The notes below the pieces were generated by a model that did no database searches, was not told where the DNA came from, and saw nothing but the letters and a program-made list of their open reading frames with translations. This document shows, piece after piece, positions 2,198 through 15,507 of a stretch of DNA of 16,044 nucleotides. The stretch lies in contig JAAZNX010000006.1 in the NCBI GenBank assembly GCA_012798025.1, positions 1 to 16,044 of the forward strand, read 5' to 3'. The position numbers and the translations under genes are program-made. Source of the stretch: Methanothrix sp. (lineage in GTDB: Archaea > Halobacteriota > Methanosarcinia > Methanotrichales > Methanotrichaceae). How positions within the stretch are numbered: position 1 is the first letter of the stretch; each line of letters opens with the position of its first letter.

Positions 2198-2749
2198 ATG
2201 GAGACAGAGATTCCAGTGCGGGATATCATGACCCGCCCGGTGATAACAGCCGACGCCGACCTAGACATTCTGAACGCTGCGAAGAGGATGGGCTCAGCCA
2301 ATGTGGGAAGCCTGATAATATTATCCGAGGGCAAGCCCATAGGCATTCTTACTGAAAGGGATTTAGTAAAGAAGGTTGTGGCTCAGGCGGCCGATCCCAG
2401 AAGCGTGAAGGTAGGAGACATCATGAGCGCACCAGTGGTCGCCATCGATCCAGAGGCAAGCTTGCGCGAGGCAGCAGAGCTGATGCTGAAGTCCGGCGTC
2501 AAGAGGCTCCCTGTGATCTCCAATGGAGGGCTAGTAGGAATAATAACTGACACAGATCTGGTCTCTGGATCCTCTGTCGGCCTCAATGAGATTTTGAGCA
2601 ATCTCATAGAAATGCACCGTGAGAGCGTCCACTTTGAGGAGTCCAGAGAGGTTGGAAGTGGAATTTGCGAACTTTGCGGCCAGCTCTCAGACTCCTTGAA
2701 GAGCATAAACGGCGAGCTTCTATGTTGGAGCTGCAGAGAAGGCAAATAA
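2198..2749 (+). CDS. Two-CBS-domain protein with C-terminal zinc ribbon
   Basis: 183 residues. Two CBS motifs form one Bateman module: about residues 7-60 (VRDIMTRPVITA ... GILTERDLV) and 71-125 (VGDIMSAPVVAI ... GIITDTDLV). A linker with acidic and histidine residues follows, then a C-terminal CELC (157-160) and CWSC (176-179), a four-cysteine zinc ribbon-like knuckle pair. CBS pairs sense adenine nucleotides or S-adenosylmethionine; the ribbon suggests nucleic-acid or protein binding (inference). There is no catalytic domain, so the old label 'IMP dehydrogenase-related' would be misleading. It has its own promoter and is followed after 34 bases by another promoter and the large CBS operon, so it is a neighbour of that operon rather than certainly part of it. 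Confidence 0.88.
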   Translation: METEIPVRDIMTRPVITADADLDILNAAKRMGSANVGSLIILSEGKPIGILTERDLVKKVVAQAADPRSVKVGDIMSAPVVAIDPEASLREAAELMLKSGVKRLPVISNGGLVGIITDTDLVSGSSVGLNEILSNLIEMHRESVHFEESREVGSGICELCGQLSDSLKSINGELLCWSCREGK

Positions 2750-2775
2750 TTTTATACCAGCTTGCAGGACCGAGG
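2748..2775 (+). promoter_or_regulatory. Promoter and RBS of the CBS/RNA ligase operon
   Basis: AATTTTATAC (2748-2757) overlaps the stop codon of the previous gene and looks like a TATA box. GAGG (2772-2775) sits 8 bases before the ATG at 2784. Initiation near 2778 would give a near-leaderless message, so the TATA and SD assignments are slightly in tension; read-through from 2198 may use the SD. Confidence 0.5.
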
Positions 2776-2783
2776 AAATAATT

Positions 2784-3560
2784 ATGTTAGTTGAGGATAT
2801 TTTATCCAGAGATCCTCTTTACGTAGAGGATTCCACTTATCTGACTAAGGCGCGCCAGTTGATCAGAGACCATCATGTGCGAGGACTGCCGGTTGTGAAC
2901 GATAATAAGCACGTCCTTGGCATTGTAACTGCTCGGGATATGCTCAGAGTAACCTCGACCAAGTCGAATGTGACTGTAGCCGGCTTCATGGTCCAGGTTC
3001 CACTCGTGACAGGACAGATGGACATGTTCGATGCAGCCCGTCTCATGCTCAAGGAGAAGAGTGCCTTGCTGCCAGTGATTGAGTCCATGGACAAGCCTCG
3101 CCTTCGGGGCGTAGTCACCCTCCTGGATGTATTCAAACATATAGACCTTGAGAAGGTTCCAAAAAAGCAAATTCAAGAGTTTATGAGCACCAAGGTCGTA
3201 ACTGCAAGCCCGGACGACCCGGTAACAAAGGTCTGGGACAAGATGGTGGAAGAGGACTTTACAGGACTGCCAGTTGTAAAAGATGGCAAGCCCATTGGGA
3301 TGATCACAAGGTTCGATATTCTGAAGAGAGGTTGGGCCAGGATCAGCAAAGAGAGCGAAACCAGGCCCGTCGATTCCACGCAGATGCGCATAGAGAAGCT
3401 GATGAGCTCTCCCATATACAGCATAAAGCCGGATGCCAGCCTTGCCAGCGCCATAGAGCTGATGCGCAAATACGAAATCGGCCGGATATCTGTAGTAGAT
3501 GAGGGAAAGCTCATTGGGATAGTCGATAGAAACGATCTGATCAAAGGCTACCTAGGGTGA
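2784..3560 (+). CDS. Four-CBS-domain protein (first gene of the CBS/RNA ligase operon)
   Basis: 258 residues made entirely of four CBS motifs in two Bateman pairs: about residues 1-57, 63-122, 130-185 and 200-258. Typical signatures are seen: RGLPVV ... GIVTARDML, the more divergent second repeat SALLPVI ... GVVTLLDVF, TGLPVV ... GMITRFDIL, and GRISVV ... GIVDRNDLI. A basic linker (about 186-199) separates the third and fourth. No enzyme, membrane or DNA-binding domain is visible. The expected role is a soluble adenosine-ligand sensor (AMP, ADP, ATP or SAM), possibly acting on operon partners; ligand and target cannot be read from the sequence. It is followed after 6 bases by the next CBS gene. 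Confidence 0.88.
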   Translation: MLVEDILSRDPLYVEDSTYLTKARQLIRDHHVRGLPVVNDNKHVLGIVTARDMLRVTSTKSNVTVAGFMVQVPLVTGQMDMFDAARLMLKEKSALLPVIESMDKPRLRGVVTLLDVFKHIDLEKVPKKQIQEFMSTKVVTASPDDPVTKVWDKMVEEDFTGLPVVKDGKPIGMITRFDILKRGWARISKESETRPVDSTQMRIEKLMSSPIYSIKPDASLASAIELMRKYEIGRISVVDEGKLIGIVDRNDLIKGYLG

Positions 3561-3566
3561 ACGAAG

Positions 3567-4544
3567 ATGAGCAAAGGGCCAACAACCGGAAAAGAAGTAA
3601 CAAGGATACCGAAGAAGAATGACAGGATGCCAGTAGCCCCAGGTTCAGGGAAAAGAGCACCTTTGCAATTCGATTCCCGATCTGCAAGGCGAATGGGCGA
3701 AGTTTTAAGCGTAGCGTCCACTGACGTCGTCACAGTCCCGCCTACTACAACGATCATGGGAGCCATAAAGACGATGACCTTTTATGGTTTTTCCAGGCTT
3801 CCAATAGCCGATGCTGGGACCAGAAGGTTGATCGGATTTGTGACATCAGTGGACATCGTGGACTTCCTGGGCGGAGGCCTGCGTCATAACCTCCTGAGGG
3901 AGAAGTTTGGCGGCAACATCTTCACGGCCATCAATGCCGATATCAGGGAGATCATGAGCACAGAGCTCACATACGCCAGCGATAAGTCCTCCTTGAACGA
4001 TGTTTTAAAGCTGATGTACGAGAAGAACGTGGGCGGCCTCCCTATAGTTGATGAAGAAAACCGCATTGAAGCCATAATAACCGAGGAGGACTTCGTGCGC
4101 TTCTGCAGCAATCTGGATACGGGGTTGCTTGTAGAGTCATTCATGAACCCCAATGTGGTGACGGCTCCAGCGCAAACCACCATCGAGAAGATGACCAGAA
4201 TGATCATTCAGAAAGGATTCCGCCGCATGCCTGTCGTGCAGGACGGTGTGCTCATGGGCATGGTCACTGCATCAGACATAATGAAATATCTTGGCAGTGG
4301 CGATGCATTTGAAAAGGTCGTAACTGGTGATATTGCTGAAGTCATGAACCAGCCTATCAAGAGCCTCATCAAGAGCAGCTTAATTGTTACAGAAAAGAAG
4401 GCGGACTTGGGGGCTGCAGCCAAGAAGATGATGGATAACGACATTGGGTCTTTGCCTGTTTTGGACAATGAATCCTTGGCAGGAATTCTGACAGAGAGGG
4501 ACTACGTGAGGGCATTGGCCGAGAACAGGGGGATACTATCATGA
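3567..4544 (+). CDS. Four-CBS-domain protein with basic N-terminal extension
   Basis: 325 residues. A lysine/arginine-rich, low-complexity extension of about 40 residues precedes four CBS motifs: about 43-103, 126-182, 188-245 and 255-320. An insertion of about 20 residues (RHNLLREKFGGNIF region) lies between the first two. Signatures include SRLPIA ... GFVTSVDIV, GGLPIV ... IITEEDFV, RRMPVV ... GMVTASDIM and GSLPVL ... GILTERDYV. The ATG at 3567 follows GGGTGA, which overlaps the previous stop; the spacing is good. The stop overlaps the next start by 4 bases (ATGA). The basic tail could bind RNA or another polyanion, which would fit the RNA ligase downstream (inference). Confidence 0.87.
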   Translation: MSKGPTTGKEVTRIPKKNDRMPVAPGSGKRAPLQFDSRSARRMGEVLSVASTDVVTVPPTTTIMGAIKTMTFYGFSRLPIADAGTRRLIGFVTSVDIVDFLGGGLRHNLLREKFGGNIFTAINADIREIMSTELTYASDKSSLNDVLKLMYEKNVGGLPIVDEENRIEAIITEEDFVRFCSNLDTGLLVESFMNPNVVTAPAQTTIEKMTRMIIQKGFRRMPVVQDGVLMGMVTASDIMKYLGSGDAFEKVVTGDIAEVMNQPIKSLIKSSLIVTEKKADLGAAAKKMMDNDIGSLPVLDNESLAGILTERDYVRALAENRGILS

Positions 4545-5401
4545 TCATAAAAAAAGTCAAAGACTACATGAGCGCTCCTATATACGTTATCGAGCGGAAT
4601 GAGCCCATCCAAAGAGCCAGAAATCTGATGTTCAAATACGGCATTGGCAGAATTCCTGTGATGGATAAGGGCAAGCTGGTAGGCATAGTTACAAAATATG
4701 ACATCACCAACCGGCTCAACCAGGCAGCTCCGGAGTGGCGCAGACGGCCCATTGACAAAATCCCCATCCAAGTAGTGATGACCGAAAAGCCCATAACCAT
4801 TTTCCCCGATGCCACCATGCCCCAGGCGGCTGAGCTCATGGTCGAGAACGATATCAGCGGCTTGCCAGTGGAGCGCGATGGCGATATCGTGGGCATGATC
4901 ACCTCCCGAAACATGGTGAAGTACTTCTCAGAGCAGGATGTCAGGGCAACAGTTGGCGACCTGATGAATAAAAACATTTTGAGTGTCCATCGGCACCACA
5001 CAATAGGCCATGTCCTGGAGGAGATGAATGTGCAGGGCGTCAGCCGTGCCCTGGTCTATGAGGACAACGCAACTCCCGTTGGGATTGTCACCCGCTCAAG
5101 CCTCACGTTCTCGGATATCATGGGACCAAAAGATGAGATGGAGACCAAGAACATAAAGATGACCAGAAAAGAGAGCACTGCCGGCAGAAAACAATACAGA
5201 TATATAAGGCAGATGCCTTTTGTGGCCGAGGATATCATGACATCTCCCATCATCACAGTTAACCCGGAGATAAAAGCGGTAGAAGCTGCCAAGACGCTCT
5301 CTGAGAAGAACATCATTGGCATGCCAGTCATGGAGAATAACGATGTTGTGGGCTACTTCTCGGCCGATGAGATCATATCAGAGATTGGGAGGTGGAAGTG
5401 A
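4541..5401 (+). CDS. Four-CBS-domain protein
   Basis: 286 residues with four CBS motifs: about 6-60 (VKDYMSAPIYVI ... GIVTKYDIT), 75-130 (GLPVERDGDIVGMITSRNMV), 134-194 (a degenerate repeat with SRALVYEDN ... GIVTRSSLT) and 226-284 (AEDIMTSPIITV ... GYFSADEII). A charged linker rich in Lys and Arg (about 200-222) separates the third and fourth, the same position as the basic linker in the protein at 2784, suggesting these genes arose by duplication. The start lies within the ATGA overlap with the previous stop, indicating translational coupling. The stop overlaps the next start by one base. Confidence 0.87.
   Translation: MIIKKVKDYMSAPIYVIERNEPIQRARNLMFKYGIGRIPVMDKGKLVGIVTKYDITNRLNQAAPEWRRRPIDKIPIQVVMTEKPITIFPDATMPQAAELMVENDISGLPVERDGDIVGMITSRNMVKYFSEQDVRATVGDLMNKNILSVHRHHTIGHVLEEMNVQGVSRALVYEDNATPVGIVTRSSLTFSDIMGPKDEMETKNIKMTRKESTAGRKQYRYIRQMPFVAEDIMTSPIITVNPEIKAVEAAKTLSEKNIIGMPVMENNDVVGYFSADEIISEIGRWK
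5388..5394 (+). promoter_or_regulatory. Strong Shine-Dalgarno that fixes the start of the next CBS gene
   Basis: GGAGGTG lies within the end of the preceding gene, 6 bases before the ATG at 5401. The longer reading from the GTG at 5392 would start inside this site, so ATG 5401 is the better start. Confidence 0.7.
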
Positions 5402-6180
5402 TGCAGGTAAAGGACATAATGACTGAGCCGGTCACCATCGACAAATCAGAGAGAATTGGCCACGCACTGGACCTGATGGAGAAGAACGACCTGCGCAGGC
5501 TCTTGGTGACCAACAAGGACAAGATGGGTGGAATAATAACCACAAGACAGATCGCTCGTGTGCTTGGCACTCGAAAGAGCCTGGGCATGCCGGCATCCTC
5601 GCTGCATGTGGCTGCAGCAACTATGGATGCCGTGATCAAGGTCTTGCCAGATATGAGCGTGGAAGATGCCATGGTCCTCCTGCAGAAGACCTCTGTGCTG
5701 GTAGTAGTGGATGGCGACAAGATCCTGGGATGGATCCGGCCAAGAGAGATACTGGCTGCAGTAAATGTGAGCGGCCATGCCTCCGATGCCATGAGGTTCC
5801 CTCTGACTGCGAACCCCAACGATCGCCTGGTTCATGCCCGGCGCATGATGCTGGACAGAGATGTGGGCAGGCTGCCAGTTGTGGAAGCCGGTCGGCTGGT
5901 GGGGATAATAACTGAGAGGGACATGGCAAGGTCTCTGCGGGCCTTCCGAGACCTTAACGATACCGCAAGCAAGCAATATGCTCGCATCTACAATATACTG
6001 GTCGCTGACGTGATGACCCACGATGTTTTGTATGTGTACACAGACACTCCCCTGGAAGATGTCAAGAAGATGATCCTCACTGAAGGCAAGGGTGGCCTGC
6101 CAGTTCTCAATCGCAAGGAAGAGGTGGTGGGGATGATAACCAGGAGGTCAATCCTTGATTATCTGGTGAGGACCAGATGA
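5401..6180 (+). CDS. Four-CBS-domain protein (last CBS gene before the RNA ligase)
   Basis: 259 residues from the ATG at 5401 (TGATG overlap with the preceding stop), chosen because of the GGAGGTG 6 bases upstream; a GTG at 5392 would add three residues. Four CBS motifs: about 1-58 (VKDIMTEPVTID ... GIITTRQIA), 65-125 (degenerate, SVLVVVDGDKILGWIRPREI), 128-185 (GRLPVV ... GIITERDMA) and 200-258 (GGLPVL ... GMITRRSIL). It overlaps the RNA ligase start by 4 bases (ATGA), so the two are very probably co-translated. There is no catalytic domain. A direct regulatory link with the ligase is an inference from position only. Confidence 0.88.
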   Translation: MQVKDIMTEPVTIDKSERIGHALDLMEKNDLRRLLVTNKDKMGGIITTRQIARVLGTRKSLGMPASSLHVAAATMDAVIKVLPDMSVEDAMVLLQKTSVLVVVDGDKILGWIRPREILAAVNVSGHASDAMRFPLTANPNDRLVHARRMMLDRDVGRLPVVEAGRLVGIITERDMARSLRAFRDLNDTASKQYARIYNILVADVMTHDVLYVYTDTPLEDVKKMILTEGKGGLPVLNRKEEVVGMITRRSILDYLVRTR

Positions 6181-9648: not shown

Positions 9649-10995
9649 TCAAGTGCATCGGAAATGCTCCTCCAGCCGTTCCTCGATCTCCTCCAGCGTC
9701 AGGCTCTCTTGCTCTCCAGTCTGCATATTTCGCAATGTGAGCTTTCCCATGTCCAGCTCATTTCTGCCCAATATTATCGCGAACTGGGCGCCTGCTGATC
9801 CTGCTGCCTTGAGCTGCGCCCCAAGTCCCCTGCCCATGACATCAAGAACTACTGGCACTCTTTGGCGCAGCTTCTTTGAAATCTTCGCAGCATCGACTTT
9901 GACATCTGGCGTAAAGGCCAAGAAGACAGGAGGCTTTCGCTCATCTTTGATCTGCACGATCTCCATGATGCGATCGAAGCCGAGGCCAAAGCCCGTGGAC
10001 GAGGTCTCTTTGCCTCCGAAGAGGCTGGCCAGCTCATAGGTCCCTCCGCCGCAGATCTGCCGCTGCGCACCCAATCCTTCTGCATAAATCTCGAAGACAG
10101 TGCCTGAGTAGTATTCCAGGCCGCGCACGATCTCAAAGTCAGTGGTGAAGTTGACGCCATAGGCTTCGAGGAGCTCCACGGTCTCGCGAAACTCATCCAT
10201 CTTAAGCTCTGCGCTCACAAAACGACCAGTGCGTGCGGAGGCCCTGCCAGCCGTCTCAGAAGATCTAGCCAAGGATCCCGCAGTCGACGCTGATTCCGGT
10301 GTTCTGACTGCGCCCAGATCTCGTGCGATCTCCAAGGCTTTATCCAGGGCATCTTTGCCTTTCAGATCGATCAACTCCAGCAGACCGAGATGGTTTGCAC
10401 CTATATCATCCAGGAACTCCGCCAAAGCCTCGCGCTCTTTTTTGTCGATCATCCTCATGACCGCAGGCCTGTTCTCTGCGCCGATCTTGTCCATCAGGGA
10501 TCTGATCAGCCCAAGGTATCCGACGTGGATCTCGCCCACCACGTTAACGCTGCGCAGCGTCTGGTCTGCCAGCGCGATGACCTCAGCCTCAGAATCAGGC
10601 CTGGATCCGCCGATCAGCTCTGCGCCAAGCTGCCAGAACTCCCGGAAGCGCCCCTTCTGGGGCCGCTCATAACGGAAGCAATTGCCAAAGTAGTAGAGCC
10701 TCTGGGGCCGCGGAGCATTCTGCAGCTCGGATACGTACATGCGCATCACAGGCGCTGTCAGCTCTGGCCGCAGGGCAAGATCACGGCCACCCTTGTCCTT
10801 GAAGCTATAGATCTCGTCTATCACCGACTGGCCCGACTTTATGGTGAAGAGCTCCAGTAGCTCAAAGGTGGGCGTGGCTATCTCCTGATATCCCCAGCGC
10901 CCTAAAACACTCTCCATAGCCTCCCTGGCTATGCTTCTCCGCCAGGCTTCTGCAGGAAGAAAGTCCCTGGTGCCTCTTGGTCTCTGTATGGTCAT
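9649..10995 (-). CDS. hisS: Histidyl-tRNA synthetase
   Basis: 448 residues from the ATG at 10995, which gives the typical class II HisRS N-terminus MTIQRPRGTRDFLP. Seen: motif 2 RYERPQKGRFREFWQLG, the histidine-binding motif IVRGLEYYSGTVFEIY, ICGGGTY, motif 3 FGLGFDRIM, and a C-terminal anticodon-binding domain (VVLDVMGRGLGAQLK, FAIILGRNEL). The enzyme charges tRNA-His with histidine using ATP. A Ser/Ala/Arg-rich insertion (TPESASTAGSLARSSETA region) is low complexity and may be a surface loop. The open frame extends 39 codons upstream to 11112, but that part looks like untranslated promoter sequence containing a tandem repeat. A TATA-like box about 30 bases before the ATG and no clear SD suggest a leaderless transcript. 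It converges on the small membrane protein gene. Confidence 0.95.
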   Translation of the reverse strand: MTIQRPRGTRDFLPAEAWRRSIAREAMESVLGRWGYQEIATPTFELLELFTIKSGQSVIDEIYSFKDKGGRDLALRPELTAPVMRMYVSELQNAPRPQRLYYFGNCFRYERPQKGRFREFWQLGAELIGGSRPDSEAEVIALADQTLRSVNVVGEIHVGYLGLIRSLMDKIGAENRPAVMRMIDKKEREALAEFLDDIGANHLGLLELIDLKGKDALDKALEIARDLGAVRTPESASTAGSLARSSETAGRASARTGRFVSAELKMDEFRETVELLEAYGVNFTTDFEIVRGLEYYSGTVFEIYAEGLGAQRQICGGGTYELASLFGGKETSSTGFGLGFDRIMEIVQIKDERKPPVFLAFTPDVKVDAAKISKKLRQRVPVVLDVMGRGLGAQLKAAGSAGAQFAIILGRNELDMGKLTLRNMQTGEQESLTLEEIEERLEEHFRCT

Positions 10996-11021
10996 ATCGC
11001 AAAGGGTTTCGCGCAAAATGC

Positions 11022-11108: not shown

Positions 11109-11801
11109 TCACTTAAGTTTTTCCTCTACCTCTGATGAGCAGACGATGATCTGCACAGGCTTTATTATTATATTCGAAGTGGCCACCGCACTGCCACCTT
11201 CAACGGTATTTATAGCGCTGACAGTTATGCCGTGAACATCGATATTCATGCTGTTCCCCAAGCGTTGCGAAGGCCTTTGCGTTCCTTTCGCTTGAGAGCG
11301 GCTGTCATTCATGCAAGAATTCAATTTATCGTCAACAATTTTTTCAATATCTTCGCCTTCGTCAGCTATCGACCACTCTTTTTCCGAGTACTCCTCGCCT
11401 GTAACCCTGACGTCCAGAAAATTCGCCAGGCCTTGCGCCTCAGGGTCCCCATTTTGGAGTTCATCGTAAAATATATCCCTTTGTCGAAGGGCATTCATGG
11501 CCTTCAGGCCTTGAACTTGGTGATCTGAATAGGATTGGTTCAAGCGAATCTTCTCCTCCACTGGTGCTATATGAAGGATAAAATCAGTGCTATGAGTCAA
11601 TGAGACCTGTGGCCTTCGCGAAGCCCAGGGAAAGATATGGGTGTTATTATTGGGAAGCTTGAGCTGCCCTACACCAGATTCAAACTGAGGATGAATTAAA
11701 TTTAATCGTTGTTCTGTCGCTGATGCTCCTAGCATCAAGCAGAGACAAACAATAGTGGCCCCCACCAGCAATGCGCCGGTGGGTCCCATTATTCTGTTCA
11801 T
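11109..11801 (-). CDS. Secreted protein B1 of a duplicated two-gene cassette, unknown function
   Basis: 230 residues with an N-terminal signal peptide (hydrophobic GALLVGATIVCLCLMLGASA, probable cleavage after ASA, residue 28). It is a paralogue of B2 at 12611: shared blocks are LRQRDIFYDELQ (LKQRDIYWDDSQ in B2), a GN-LD-V-G stretch, and a strongly conserved C-terminus with VSAINTVEGGSAVATSNIII, then PVQ and EEKLK. B1 carries an extra acidic segment in the middle (EWSIADEGEDIEKIVDDKLN). No enzyme motif is visible and there is no C-terminal anchor. It starts 30 bases after the stop of A1, with a hairpin in that gap and no strong SD. The C-terminal block resembles the A-protein repeats in style (alternating small/polar residues with G-N-A turns), suggesting a beta-rich extracellular structural protein (inference). 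Confidence 0.78.
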   Translation of the reverse strand: MNRIMGPTGALLVGATIVCLCLMLGASATEQRLNLIHPQFESGVGQLKLPNNNTHIFPWASRRPQVSLTHSTDFILHIAPVEEKIRLNQSYSDHQVQGLKAMNALRQRDIFYDELQNGDPEAQGLANFLDVRVTGEEYSEKEWSIADEGEDIEKIVDDKLNSCMNDSRSQAKGTQRPSQRLGNSMNIDVHGITVSAINTVEGGSAVATSNIIIKPVQIIVCSSEVEEKLK

Positions 11802-11811
11802 ATAGCACTCA

Positions 11812-11829
11812 TCAGGTCCTGGGACCTGA
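11812..11829 (-). repeat. Hairpin between secreted genes A1 and B1
   Basis: TCAGGTCC (11812-11819) and GGACCTGA (11822-11829) form a perfect 8-bp stem with a 2-base centre, ending two bases before the A1 stop codon. No T run follows. It may stabilise the A1 message or partly terminate transcription, so that A is made in excess over B. Confidence 0.65.
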
Positions 11830-11831
11830 AA

Positions 11832-12314
11832 TTACTGCTGGTTGGTGGCGATCTCTACGTTGTTTTGAGCCAGAGTAGACGCAGCGTTCCTCGCGAAGGG
11901 GAAAGCACCCTGAATGCCGACTCCGATGGCAGTGGCACTTCTGCTCCCTACCTCGATCTGCTCCACGTTGTACTTGGGACTGCAGGATGCACATGTGGCA
12001 CTGTCACCTGTATCCTGATTTTTCTTGATCTTCAGGTTGTTTTGCGCAGTTACAGCAGCCGAATTAGTGCCAAATGGTCCTGCAAATTGTCCGCCTACAC
12101 CTATTGCCAGGGCGTTATCGTTTCCTACTTTAACTGAGTCGTAGTTCGTATTAGACGCTGCAGGGAACTTGAATGCGCTGCCTTGGGTCTCAAAAATTCC
12201 CTCGCCCAGAACATCCACACCGCCATTTCCAACTATTGCGCTTTGGGCCATCACTGGGGCCGCAAGAGCTGCCACAGCCATAGCCAGCACAAAGAATATT
12301 GCTACTCTTTTGAT
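11832..12314 (-). CDS. Secreted repeat protein A1, curlin-like repeats, apparent ATC start
   Basis: 160 residues if started at the ATC at 12314. The signal peptide IKRVAIFFVLAMAVAALA is followed by APVMA^Q cleavage (residue 23/24). No ATG, GTG or TTG exists in this frame between an upstream TAA and the ATC. A GTG at 12290 would give a signal peptide with no basic end and only about 15 residues. GGGGTGA lies 4 bases before the ATC. The mature protein has a GIFETQGSAFKFP block shared with A2, then two repeats of about 42 residues (60-101 and 118-160): DSVKVGNDNALAIG ... AQNNLKIKKNQ and EQIEVGSRSATAIG ... AQNNVEIATNQ. The joining segment contains CASC. The VGN-x-x-A turn and the AQNN/NQ ends recall curlin repeats; a beta-solenoid or amyloid-like fold is inferred. 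Confidence 0.75.
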   Translation of the reverse strand: MKRVAIFFVLAMAVAALAAPVMAQSAIVGNGGVDVLGEGIFETQGSAFKFPAASNTNYDSVKVGNDNALAIGVGGQFAGPFGTNSAAVTAQNNLKIKKNQDTGDSATCASCSPKYNVEQIEVGSRSATAIGVGIQGAFPFARNAASTLAQNNVEIATNQQ

Positions 12315-12373
12315 AGTCTCACCCCATAAATCTTTTTAGATTAGACTTAACTAACACTCAATTATATATATAC
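12315..12373 (-). promoter_or_regulatory. Promoter and Shine-Dalgarno of A1
   Basis: The complement of 12362-12373 is a TATA box (TATATATATAAT type) preceded by ACCAAAA as BRE. Initiation is expected near 12341, giving a leader of about 27 bases. The complement of 12319-12325 is GGGGTGA, 4 bases before the ATC. The leader matches A2 closely around the SD. Confidence 0.65.
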
Positions 12374-12610
12374 GTTTTGGTGCCTTTTTTAAAGGAATAA
12401 TAGAATTATAGAAATATTTGTACTAATTAATTTTCCATAAGATATGTGCGGTGTGATATGCGATCCATATAATACAACCCTAAATAGCAAGCTTCGCATA
12501 GCAGTATGATTTCCCTGCTAAATGCAAAAGCCCTGAAAATGCAAAAGTCCTGGAAAAAGAGACGAATGAGGTTTACTGTCTTTGCTAGAAATATGGGCCC
12601 ATGGCGGGCA
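12374..12610. other. AT-rich gap between A1 promoter and B2, with a 17-bp tandem repeat
   Basis: No gene is seen. Two adjacent 17-mers, 12521-12537 and 12538-12554 (core AATGCAAAAGyCCTG), match at 15 of 17 positions. A weak hairpin after the B2 stop, GCCC (12597-12600) with GGGC (12606-12609), and the palindrome ATGGGCCCAT (12593-12602) may help end the B2 transcript. The rest is unremarkable AT-rich sequence. Confidence 0.5.
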
Positions 12611-13177
12611 TTATTTTAACTTTTCAGATACCTCGGGAAGGGGGGAGTAAATTATAGTTTGGACCGGGCTTATGATTATATTGGATGTGGCTGCTGCATT
12701 GCCATCTTCAACTGTATTCATGGCGCTAACCAATATATTGCTTACATAGACATTAAGGTAGTTTCCAACAAAACCGGACCTGCAACTTCTGGATTGTCCA
12801 TTCGTAAGATCGCTACCATCAATCAAACCACCATCCACCCATATGTCCAAAGCGTTGCCAACTGGTTGGCGCTCCAGACCATACGTCTGAGAATCGTCCC
12901 AATAAATATCCCGTTGTTTTAAGTCGTTTATTACAGATAGGTCTTCCAATTTTGCCCGTGAATGAGAGCCATTTATGAGAATCGCCTTGTCGAGAAGCTC
13001 GAGCTGCCCTGTCACAGGTCTTTGCCCGTGATAAACGAGATCAGATTGAAATTCTTTAACCTTATTGAGCGGCTCGGACAGATCAGGATGATGCTCTGCC
13101 AAGGCCAAGATAGATGAAAAGCAAATAAAGAAAAAAACCACCAGCAGCATGCCAGTGGATTTTAGCTGGGCATTCAT
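12611..13177 (-). CDS. Secreted protein B2 of a duplicated two-gene cassette, unknown function
   Basis: 188 residues. The signal peptide (GMLLVVFFFICFSSILALA) is probably cut after ALA, about residue 27. It is a paralogue of B1. The conserved blocks are INDLKQRDIYWDDSQ, GNALDIWVDG and the C-terminal GNYLNVYVSNILVSAMNTVE, then G-A-ATSNIII, PVQ and SEKLK. GN-x-LDIxV and GN-x-LNVxV look like two copies of one short beta motif inside the protein. It begins 32 bases after the A2 stop without a clear SD, so translation may depend on A2. It lacks the acidic insertion of B1. No family is recognised and no transmembrane anchor follows the signal peptide, so a released or matrix protein is expected. 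Confidence 0.78.
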   Translation of the reverse strand: MNAQLKSTGMLLVVFFFICFSSILALAEHHPDLSEPLNKVKEFQSDLVYHGQRPVTGQLELLDKAILINGSHSRAKLEDLSVINDLKQRDIYWDDSQTYGLERQPVGNALDIWVDGGLIDGSDLTNGQSRSCRSGFVGNYLNVYVSNILVSAMNTVEDGNAAATSNIIISPVQTIIYSPLPEVSEKLK

Positions 13178-13209
13178 ACAGGACCGTCTTTTAGGTCAGA
13201 TATCAGGAC

Positions 13210-13668
13210 TTACTGCTGATTGTCCACGATCTTCACATTGTTGGTAGCTTGGGCAAATCCGAATGCAAGAGATTCTCTGTTGCCAACCTTGATCTGCGCG
13301 ATGTTGAGCTTAAGACAGCTATCCTGGCAGATAGGGTTGCCGTCAGCATCGGTAGCCACACATGGGTCACAGGCGCCTGAGTCCTGGTTCTTCTTGATCT
13401 CCAGATTGTTCTGAGCATTGGCAGGACCATTGTTAAATCCAAACGGGAAGCTTTTGCCCATTCCAAAGGCTGTAGCCTTATCGTTTCCCACCTGCACTGA
13501 GCCATAGCTGGTATCTTGGAAAACCGGGAAGGTAAATGCGCTCCCATCAGTCTCAAAGATGCCATCGCCCAAAATATCTACCTTGTCTCCACCCATTGCC
13601 ATCTGGGCCATAACTGGAACAGAGAGAAACGCCATGGCCAGAACCACAAATGCTCCTATTTTTTTGAT
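13210..13668 (-). CDS. Secreted repeat protein A2, curlin-like repeats, apparent ATC start
   Basis: 152 residues if started at the ATC at 13668, giving the signal peptide IKKIGAFVVLAMAFLSVP with cleavage after VMA (residue 21). The frame has no ATG, GTG or TTG between an upstream TAG and the ATC; a GTG at 13647 would remove the basic end. GGGGTGA is 4 bases before the ATC, exactly as in A1. The mature protein shows GIFETDGSAFTFP, repeat 1 (about 56-95, SVQVGNDKATAFG ... AQNNLEIKKNQ) and a shortened repeat 2 (about 123-152, AQIKVGNRESLAFG ... TNNVKIVDNQQ). Between them lies a four-cysteine insertion (CDPC ... CQDSC, residues 100-118) where A1 has only CASC, perhaps disulphide or metal cross-linking. 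It is first in the A2-B2-A1-B1 array. Confidence 0.75.
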   Translation of the reverse strand: MKKIGAFVVLAMAFLSVPVMAQMAMGGDKVDILGDGIFETDGSAFTFPVFQDTSYGSVQVGNDKATAFGMGKSFPFGFNNGPANAQNNLEIKKNQDSGACDPCVATDADGNPICQDSCLKLNIAQIKVGNRESLAFGFAQATNNVKIVDNQQ

Positions 13669-13731
13669 AGTATCACCCCATACATTCTTTAATATAGTCT
13701 ACTGTTGGTATTAATAATACTTATATTTTTT
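13669..13731 (-). promoter_or_regulatory. Promoter and Shine-Dalgarno of A2
   Basis: The complement of 13721-13731 is an AAAAATATAA-type TATA box preceded by ACCAA, as at A1. Initiation is expected near 13700 with a leader of about 32 bases. The complement of 13673-13679 is GGGGTGA, 4 bases before the ATC. Confidence 0.65.
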
Positions 13732-14016: not shown

Positions 14017-15507
14017 TTAAAAGATCAATTTGCGTACCTTCATTGTAGAGAGATCGACTATGGGCACCACGGCTGGCTGTGGCTGAATGTTCATCTTCTT
14101 TTGAAAATCGGTTTGAGACTGCCAAGTGCCACTATTTATAACGGCAACCCCCTTGTACCTGGTGATCCCAACAGTATGCACGTGCCCACAATGCAATATG
14201 GCGGGAGGCCGGGATATAACGTAATGGTCCTCATGCTCAGGTGCAATGGACACGCGACTTCCATAGACGGGAGAAAGATGTCGCCTCTTCAGCATCTCTA
14301 CCATGGCCTTCTCAGGCGCCGCATATGAGATACCAGGCAGTCGGAGCACCAGATCATCTATGCTCCTGCCATGGTAGATCAGAACCGATACGCCACCTAA
14401 TGTCACCCATGCAGGATTTCCCACAAATAACCCGCCCTCCCGGAAGTACTTTCGCACGGTCTCCGGCAGAGCTGGCTGGGGCTCGGCCTGACGCACAATA
14501 TCGTGATTTCCCGGGGAAATGATAACAGAGACATCACTTCTTATAGCGTTGATGCGCTCCGCCGCAGCTTCATACTGAGCATAGATGTCCTTGATCGCCA
14601 GGTCTCCCTCCTGGCCGGGATAGACGCCGATGCCGTCCACAAGATCCCCTGCAATCACCACGTACTTTACTTGGGACGCAAGGCCAGATGGATCTTCGAC
14701 CTGTCCATTGAGCCATTGAATAAATCTCTGCCAGGCATCGTCCATGAAGTATTTGCTCCCAACATGAAGGTCGGACAGCAAGAGTGCACAGCCACCACCT
14801 ACCTCCAGCGGAGCTGTCTGATTGGGTATATCTGGCCACAGCAAAGACTTGACGAAGATCCTTCCATTGCCGTCCGACGTGCCAGTGACGCCAAGGACTT
14901 CATCCGGCAGTATGTTGCCAGACTGCTCATAGATTTGTGCATCTTTTTGAACGAATGCGACTATTAAGCCCGTAGGATCCTCCAGCTCTATGACTCGATT
15001 GCCCTTGGCCGTGGTATGAACATCCATGACCATGCCGATCAATGAGACCTCTCTGCCAGCAGTGCTTTTGCCCAGTGATTCTATAGGCCGAGCGTTCAGG
15101 CGACGGGAGAGTATCTCTCTGATCTTGGTATATCTATCGCGAAAGTAGCGAACGAAGTCGTCATAATCGCCTACACATGTGGACCTTCCGGTTATGTCGC
15201 ATTTCAATTCAGCCGCTGCAGCCTGCGAGGAGGGAATACAAGGCAAGGCAGAAGATTTCTCAAGCAAAGCTCCTGGCGCATCTGTTGAGGTTAGGAGGCT
15301 GGAGACTTGAAATGCGCGAATCACTGCTACCGATCGATCCATTCGGCCGATGATGCTGCGGATCAGGTCGTCCTTTGAGCCCGGATAACTGCAAATGAAC
15401 TCAAGGGCCTCTGGCTCAAGCTGGTATCCCTGCTCCGCGAACCTCATAACGATACCTCGACGGTTATCCAAAGCCCCGCGGATGCTAGAACGCGAGATCT
15501 CCATCAT
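14017..15507 (-). CDS. polB: DNA polymerase D (Pol II) small subunit DP1, 3'-5' exonuclease
   Basis: 496 residues, in the normal range for DP1. An N-terminal region (about 1-130) carries the helical and variable linker part. An OB-fold-like segment (about 140-230: VSLIGMVMDVHTTAKGNR) follows, then a calcineurin-like phosphoesterase with all metal-binding motifs intact: DLHVG (246-250), GDLVDG (287-292), GNHD (333-336), YHG (378-380) and HCGHVH (439-444). This is the Mre11-like proofreading nuclease that pairs with the large catalytic subunit DP2, which is not in the window. PolD is a euryarchaeal (and some other archaeal) replicative polymerase. Two consecutive ATGs (15507, 15504) are possible starts; no SD is clear and a TATA-like box is close, so a leaderless message is likely. 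It is divergent from a signal peptidase gene. Confidence 0.96.
   Translation of the reverse strand: MMEISRSSIRGALDNRRGIVMRFAEQGYQLEPEALEFICSYPGSKDDLIRSIIGRMDRSVAVIRAFQVSSLLTSTDAPGALLEKSSALPCIPSSQAAAAELKCDITGRSTCVGDYDDFVRYFRDRYTKIREILSRRLNARPIESLGKSTAGREVSLIGMVMDVHTTAKGNRVIELEDPTGLIVAFVQKDAQIYEQSGNILPDEVLGVTGTSDGNGRIFVKSLLWPDIPNQTAPLEVGGGCALLLSDLHVGSKYFMDDAWQRFIQWLNGQVEDPSGLASQVKYVVIAGDLVDGIGVYPGQEGDLAIKDIYAQYEAAAERINAIRSDVSVIISPGNHDIVRQAEPQPALPETVRKYFREGGLFVGNPAWVTLGGVSVLIYHGRSIDDLVLRLPGISYAAPEKAMVEMLKRRHLSPVYGSRVSIAPEHEDHYVISRPPAILHCGHVHTVGITRYKGVAVINSGTWQSQTDFQKKMNIQPQPAVVPIVDLSTMKVRKLIF

Follow-up and report, generated by a model that had tools for sequence, protein, structure and literature searches.

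Paired A and B genes of Methanotrichaceae, with a probable non-AUG start of A and a module shared with large surface-type proteins, as candidates for a surface scaffold

The 16,044-nucleotide (nt) stretch of Methanothrix sp. DNA analysed here (contig JAAZNX010000006.1, in full, hereafter the window) carries two copies of a two-gene cassette, A-B, that within its class is restricted to the Methanotrichaceae. The A gene is probably translated from an AUU, AUC or AUA codon (AUH) that follows a minicistron of very few codons, and the repeated module of the A protein recurs as an end domain of unrelated large proteins. The reading we favour, with our confidence about evenly divided for and against it, is that A and B are a Methanotrichaceae-specific surface scaffold, that the module docks enzymes and adhesins onto it, and that A is made from a throttled non-AUG start. 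An initial annotation, made from the letters of the window, had proposed A and B as co-exported partners of an extracellular fibre, sheath or matrix; it overlooked both that A probably has a non-AUG start and that its module serves as an end domain elsewhere, and passed without remark over the fact that the listed A open reading frames (ORFs) open at a GTG inside the signal peptide.

In both A genes of the window, A1 and A2, the conserved frame runs upstream past the listed GTG to an ATC, and no ATG, GTG, TTG or CTG lies between this ATC and the preceding in-frame stop. The ATC stands 5 nt after a GGTG, in the arrangement GGGGTGA-NACT-ATC-AAA, and the same distance is usual for the AUN codon across the homologues. 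These were collected by scanning 80 regions around the genome matches, hand-picked from the match lists, plus the window with iterated profiles, which yielded 96 A-like and 81 B-like ORFs, among them fragments and some large proteins (labels beginning with G, g and L denote genomes, genera and fetched regions). Six A-like ORFs were excluded (L076, truncated by the end of its contig; L077 and one of L111, because of masking; the large L097 and L101; and the second piece in L102), and the start position of the others was read as the codon immediately preceding the first Lys, Arg or Glu, or as the aligned ATG. This codon is ATT, ATC or ATA (ATH) in 77 of 90 homologues, ATG in 13 and anything else in none. 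The anchoring step required ATN; 12 ORFs escaped it (six of g9, L087, L105, L112, L114, L120 and L102) and were read separately, as was the misplaced row L130, which was included in the substitution set. ATG-started A genes occur in g5, g7, g9 and g11; g4 and g6 have one each, and g1 has that of L105. The leader of g11, which has ATG, is nearly identical to that of g8, which has ATA.

Several observations point to the AUH codon as the place where the coding sequence begins. No in-frame ATG, GTG, TTG or CTG was found back to the stop in 57 of the 72 anchored AUH genes. In the stretch from AUH to the first canonical start downstream, synonymous changes make up 426 of the 903 single-base differences between codons, a fraction of 0.47 compared with 0.23 for random changes, and a codon-position bias is seen downstream of AUH, the 24 nt upstream being flat. 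A U, which can pair with A37 of the initiator tRNA, occupies position -1 in 65 of the 72 AUH genes, compared with 15 of 88 and 29 of 210 ORFs that start with ATG behind a Shine-Dalgarno sequence. The pattern GGGGTGANANTATHARR matched 63 times in 50 genomes and its reversal not once; within the fetched regions 58 of 59 matches are in frame with an A ORF, and the remaining one belongs to an A1-type sequence 45 bases from a contig end. Four matches lie outside these regions: one starts an A gene with a masked stretch, and three open frames of 5, 5 and 32 codons. In G016 and G011, sampled at 20 stretches of 20 kb per genome, ATH was not in general excess after GGTGA, so the AUH start is no widespread property of these genomes. 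The AUH codon is thus, on comparative grounds, probably used as the start of A, and our search of the open-licence literature in PubMed Central (PMC) turned up no archaeal surface gene described as starting with AUU, AUC or AUA.

The Shine-Dalgarno-like sequence in front of AUH contains a TGA, and in 63 of the 72 anchored AUH genes an ATG stands no more than four codons upstream of this TGA and in frame with it. The resulting mini-ORF most commonly reads ATG-GGG-TGA, and ATG-AAG-GGG-TGA in g8. By the same rule it was found at 42 of 1349 GGTGA sites (3.1%) on the forward strands of 40 sampled stretches; by a laxer rule, GGTGA-led ATG ORFs of at least 150 amino acids (aa) in three genomes had it in 5 of 29, 2 of 54 and 0 of 7 cases. 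It is present in two of five ATG-started A genes of equal spacing. Judged from this arrangement, the minicistron probably delivers the ribosome to AUH by termination-reinitiation.

The restriction to one family emerged when 237 genomes of the window's class, 50 of them Methanotrichaceae and 187 others, were searched with profiles. A was found in 48 genomes and B in 47, all of them Methanotrichaceae, and neither was found in any of the 187 genomes outside the family. Among the 120 listed of 158, 633 and 150 database matches, the named entries are Methanothrix, Methanotrichaceae or unspecified archaea. Three genomes of the family lack B: G023, which is 58% complete and has an A truncated where a contig ends; G033, which is 56% complete, has no HisS match and has PolD1 at a contig edge; and G026, an assembly of 94% completeness in which matches to A, B and the usual flanking genes PolD1 and HisS are all missing together. 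A true loss of A and B in G026 was rejected because PolD1 and HisS are missing there too, and in both G026 and G033 the absence is due to the PolD1-HisS region itself being missing or cut in the assembly. Every genome of the family whose flanking region was found whole has A and B.

Whether the two genes occur as neighbours was one of the checks that the initial annotation had proposed, and an adjacent A-B pair is present in 46 of the 47 genomes holding B; the other, G003, has two A genes together and B elsewhere. Within the scanned regions, 69 of the 96 A-like ORFs have a B immediately downstream in the same orientation and 70 of the 81 B-like ORFs are preceded by an A in this way, so that the homologues are not commonly found apart; a stricter pairing rule gave 67 pairs. 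Orphans occur and are chiefly A.

A signal-like peptide, a GIFETxGSAFxFP block and two module copies make up the A protein; the module has about 31-45 residues with the unit N...I.VGN..A.A.G...A.A.NN..I..NQ, and each copy is modelled as three strands. The A profile also matches large ORFs, of which 16 were read and ten domain-scanned. The domains found in these carriers are a cohesin domain (L211), Phosphoesterase (one ORF of L218, and L219), Metallophos (another ORF of L218, L219 and L224), the purple-acid-phosphatase N-domain (L218 and L219), DUF7507/DUF11 (L223, and L212 below the curated cut-off), SdrD_B (L216) and YCF48-like propellers (L222 and the plus strand of L218). Fourteen of the 16 carry the module at their C-terminal end, and the two propeller proteins carry it near the N-terminus. 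Secretion of the carriers was judged by eye, some of their N-termini being masked or missing, and no Pfam or NCBIfam model covers the module in the scanned carriers. Among the matches listed, a module-only profile hit genomes of the family only, 47 of the 237. B's conserved end aligns in register with the module, with an hhalign score of 18.96 compared with a maximum of 16.91 in 200 column shuffles. A 1758-aa ORF in L220 (5981-11254, minus strand) combines near-identical tandem repeats, resembling DUF11/DUF7507 by eye, with a module at its end.

In the window the order is PolD1, A2, B2, A1, B1 and HisS, all on the minus strand (Table 1); HisS is taken from its ORF sequence to be histidyl-tRNA synthetase. 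The alternation of two A and two B genes reported in the initial annotation was thus found again, with A-B gaps of 32 and 30 bases and, as had been said of separate promoters, a TATA-like stretch seen by eye about 47-62 nt upstream of each A. The blocks common to A1 and A2 (signal pattern, GIFETxGSAFxFP, paired repeats and terminal NQQ) hold, as do those of B1 and B2, except that the supposed RQRDI reads KQRDI in B2 and the common part is therefore QRDI. In a search of the own genome A2 finds A1 over residues 1-132 of the latter, at 55% identity and E 8e-31, and B2 is 41% identical to B1 by alignment and matches it with E 8e-11 in the search; these values indicate a likeness far beyond chance. 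None of the four proteins matches a Pfam family at E≤1 or an NCBIfam model at E≤0.1, which agrees with the view that they belong to no described family and gives no sign of a known enzyme family in B. The signal peptides of A and B were judged by eye.

Table 1 Features of the A-B cassettes and their flanks in the window.
Feature	Position	Strand	Remarks
PolD1	14017..15507	-	upstream flank; DNA polymerase D small subunit-like; conserved neighbour
A2 mini-ORF ATG-GGG-TGA	13673..13681	-	GGGGTGA at 13673-13679 doubles as Shine-Dalgarno-like sequence
A2 proposed AUC start codon	13666..13668	-	ATH or ATG at the same place in homologues
A2	13210..13668	-	A gene on PolD1 side; 152 codons counted from ATC
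A2 module copy 1	13381..13509	-	three predicted strands
A2 module copy 2	13213..13305	-	three predicted strands
B2	12611..13177	-	ATG start; N-terminus signal-like
B2 conserved C-terminal module	12659..12766	-	alignment and profile comparison
A1 mini-ORF ATG-GGG-TGA	12319..12327	-	GGGGTGA at 12319-12325 is Shine-Dalgarno-like sequence
A1 proposed AUC start codon	12312..12314	-	frame and homologue comparison
A1	11832..12314	-	A gene on HisS side; 160 codons counted from ATC
A1 module copy 1	12012..12146	-	sequence alignment/profile
A1 module copy 2	11835..11969	-	sequence alignment/profile
7-bp hairpin, predicted	11812..11829	-	between A1 stop and B1 start
B1	11109..11801	-	ATG start; N-terminus signal-like
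B1 conserved C-terminal module	11151..11255	-	alignment and profile comparison
HisS	9649..11004	-	downstream flank; presumed histidyl-tRNA synthetase; conserved neighbour

The usual place of the cassette is PolD1-(A-B)n-HisS. Eight genera have A-B pairs in the PolD1-HisS interval. Five of these carry a single pair, g2 and g6 carry two, and many genomes of g1 two or three; some g1 genomes have one pair at PolD1 and another at HisS, far apart or on different contigs. In g4 the PolD1-HisS interval holds two A genes and no B, and in g8 and g9 neither PolD1 nor HisS was found beside the A-B pair. In trees of 48 A and 48 B proteins, the copies of both cluster by side, PolD1 or HisS, with none of 500 shuffles reaching as low a value. 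The B tree has one set of 19 HisS-side copies plus one middle copy (92/88) and a second of 14 of the 20 PolD1-side copies plus one unlabelled (95/98), with B2 of the window and its two closest relatives outside the latter. The split is less clean in the A tree, where the PolD1-side genes form groups of 13 and 7, A2 of the window sitting in the smaller one, and three HisS-side genes (L117, L147 and L103) are placed among PolD1-side ones. From these trees the A-B duplication looks old, with both pairs retained. In L119 two near-identical A genes stand in tandem (1784-2311 and 2684-3211, plus strand) with B directly after the second only, probably a recent duplication.

A hairpin like the one in the A1-B1 gap of the window is predicted in several A1-B1-type pairs of sister genomes, and none is predicted in the A2-B2 gap of the window. 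When 68 distinct gaps were folded, it appeared in A1-B1-type pairs and a few others and not in most A2-B2-type pairs, and it was rejected as a general A-B feature; where present, the A1-B1 hairpin could possibly set the A:B ratio. Elsewhere in the window, five consecutive ORFs (2198-6180, plus strand), which from their sequence we take to be CBS-domain proteins, precede an RNA ligase and an ArgZ-like/LOR gene, and this order is also kept in two sister genomes (L200 and L201).

Several known systems resemble parts of this arrangement. The curli proteins CsgA and CsgB, with which the initial annotation had compared the cassette, are small secreted neighbours with a common short beta-strand repeat, one of them mostly repeat and the other repeat plus extra sequence. 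A and B are likewise encoded by two neighbouring genes, have signal-like N-termini by eye and hold, weakly, one repeat type in common; however, neither matches the curlin repeat model (Pfam, E≤1), and the A module is about 31-45 residues long with the pattern N...G..A.A...A.NN..I..NQ. The comparison therefore stands for the layout and the common repeat type, and A and B are not members of that family. C-terminal sorting or docking domains such as dockerin, Por/type IX sorting domains and PGF-CTERM are also short modules at the C-terminus of unrelated, apparently secreted proteins, whereas the A module is occasionally N-terminal (L222 and L218) and also stands alone as a two-copy protein. The start of A recalls bacterial infC, which has a start codon of the AUU/AUC/AUA type, in combining AUN with a Shine-Dalgarno sequence; unlike infC, A is a multi-copy archaeal family with signal-like N-termini and a conserved minicistron ending in the Shine-Dalgarno-like sequence. 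No description of A or B, and no expression or proteomic record of either, was found in the open-licence PMC literature.

The main rival for the start of A is a programmed +1 frameshift, in which translation would begin at the mini-ORF AUG and slip at GGG-UGA to give M-G-E-T-I-K-K, with AUH read as ordinary Ile. The AUG occupies the same frame in 63 of the 72 AUH genes with lengths that differ between genera, the geometry is like that of the known prfB-type shift, and the mature protein would be identical under both models. Two things weaken this explanation: nine AUH genes lack a mini-ORF ATG, and the AUN position is invariant. Ile there changes only to ATG, aligned as the start in other genera, and the residues that follow vary, signal peptide N-regions being freely variable. 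The 24 nt upstream moreover have no codon-position bias, and we consider the +1 shift rather improbable. A programmed -1 frameshift at the A-run of A2 was rejected, as A1 and g8 have neither the run nor the needed AUG frame. Alternatively, translation could begin within the signal peptide, at its first ATG, GTG or TTG, with the codons upstream forming a leader, and 116 of the 133 inspected database entries of A (P0001-P0120 and P0241-P0253) do begin inside or after the hydrophobic core, with 12 beginning upstream of AUH and 5 without a landmark. However, the position of that codon ranges from +3 to +12 across the 72 homologues, the signal would be stripped of its basic N-region, and the codons upstream of it are under synonymous constraint, which makes an internal start very improbable. 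If the AUH start is true, the database entries of the family mostly carry wrong N-termini.

Two further alternatives concern what the proteins do. A and B might be minor members or relatives of the archaeal SH sheath-protein superfamily, since both are secreted (for A and B presumably so), beta-rich, repeated proteins of the same filamentous sheathed archaea and A has beta-rich repeats with Cys. The SH core has two six-stranded antiparallel beta-sheets. A 2024 archaeal sheath survey (PMC11576556) notes that SH genes also duplicate in clusters and places SH proteins in Methanotrichales, Methanomicrobiales, ANME-1 and some Thermofilales. This range looks wider than that of A and B, which were found in Methanotrichaceae only in a genome search covering one class. 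A has a length of about 150 aa and six main strands, predicted as two triplets, and no sequence match to SH was detected in what was compared. Another comparison is with Methanothrix thermoacetophila MspA (ABK14853.1; Mthe_1069), a 60.9-kDa protein of Methanotrichales reported as a sheath component in excerpts of two papers (PMC6242892, PMC10470525). The A profile had no convincing match in 100 kb of the genome presumed to be that of M. thermoacetophila PT, where the presence of SH genes is unconfirmed, and the module profile matches this genome in one place, inside an A gene (among the matches listed). Kinship with SH seems unlikely. A similarly small chance is given to a non-structural role, with A as a secreted effector or signalling protein and B as its membrane-bound partner or receptor. 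A is small, contains Cys and adjoins a less conserved partner, and the helix modelled at residues 7-26 of B may be a membrane anchor and not a cleaved signal; however, the near-universal presence in the family, with two exceptions for A and three for B, all incomplete or gapped genomes, and a module common to enzymes and adhesins suit a scaffold better.

A number of points nevertheless speak against a scaffold of A and B with A made from a non-AUG start. Nine of the 72 AUH genes have no minicistron, and 15 have an upstream in-frame candidate start (ATG, GTG or TTG in 13, CTG only in two). Within 15 nt upstream, further ATGs also occur outside the mini-ORF frame, 33 in one of the other two frames and 5 in the remaining one. 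The counts of substitutions and bases come from related sequences that were handled as if independent. An adjoining B is missing for 27 of the 96 A-like ORFs, some of these being fragments or large proteins. The profile match between A and B is weak (hhalign probability 28%, and 5% with fewer sequences), the structure model of A is middling (pLDDT 62.8, with six main strands in two triplets) and that of B poor (pLDDT 46.1), and A and B have no fold match in the PDB and no significant viral match. The module matches in the own genome are just the four copies inside A1 and A2, so that docking cannot be general. Against this background the idea of A and B as structural partners is strengthened by an old neighbouring pair, signal-like N-termini and a weakly detectable common module; fibre formation, export and binding are presumed, and the idea is plausible though unproven.

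In the scaffold reading, A and B would be secreted and assemble together into an extracellular scaffold as a minor sheath, plug or matrix component, A being the module-rich subunit with two three-strand modules and B a partner with an N-terminal part of its own and a related end module. The modules would associate with one another, and the same module on phosphoesterases, cohesin-like, DUF7507 and SdrD_B-type proteins would dock these clients onto the scaffold where they are present. A would be translated from AUU, AUC or AUA, 5 nt after the GGTG of a strong Shine-Dalgarno-like sequence, with a start-stop minicistron handing the ribosome to AUH by termination-reinitiation, and the weak start would hold A output below what the promoter allows and low relative to ATG-started B. 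We speculate that such throttling may be useful for a self-associating protein. It is a tentative further possibility, less than likely as a whole, that A and B represent an undescribed surface-assembly system in which one module polymerises as A, pairs with B and docks clients, with A gated by minicistron-coupled non-AUG reinitiation; minicistron-coupled selection of a non-AUG start was not found for archaeal structural genes in the open-licence PMC literature. In the excerpts of the 2024 survey, the composition of sheath plugs is called poorly understood, the proteins that assemble the sheath unclear and the gene context uninformative (PMC11576556). With their signal-like N-termini, their family-wide presence and the link of the module to surface-type enzymes, A and B are concrete candidates for sheath or plug partners, and if their proposed expression is true, the AUH start with its conserved minicistron would provide a natural comparative case of archaeal non-AUG initiation.

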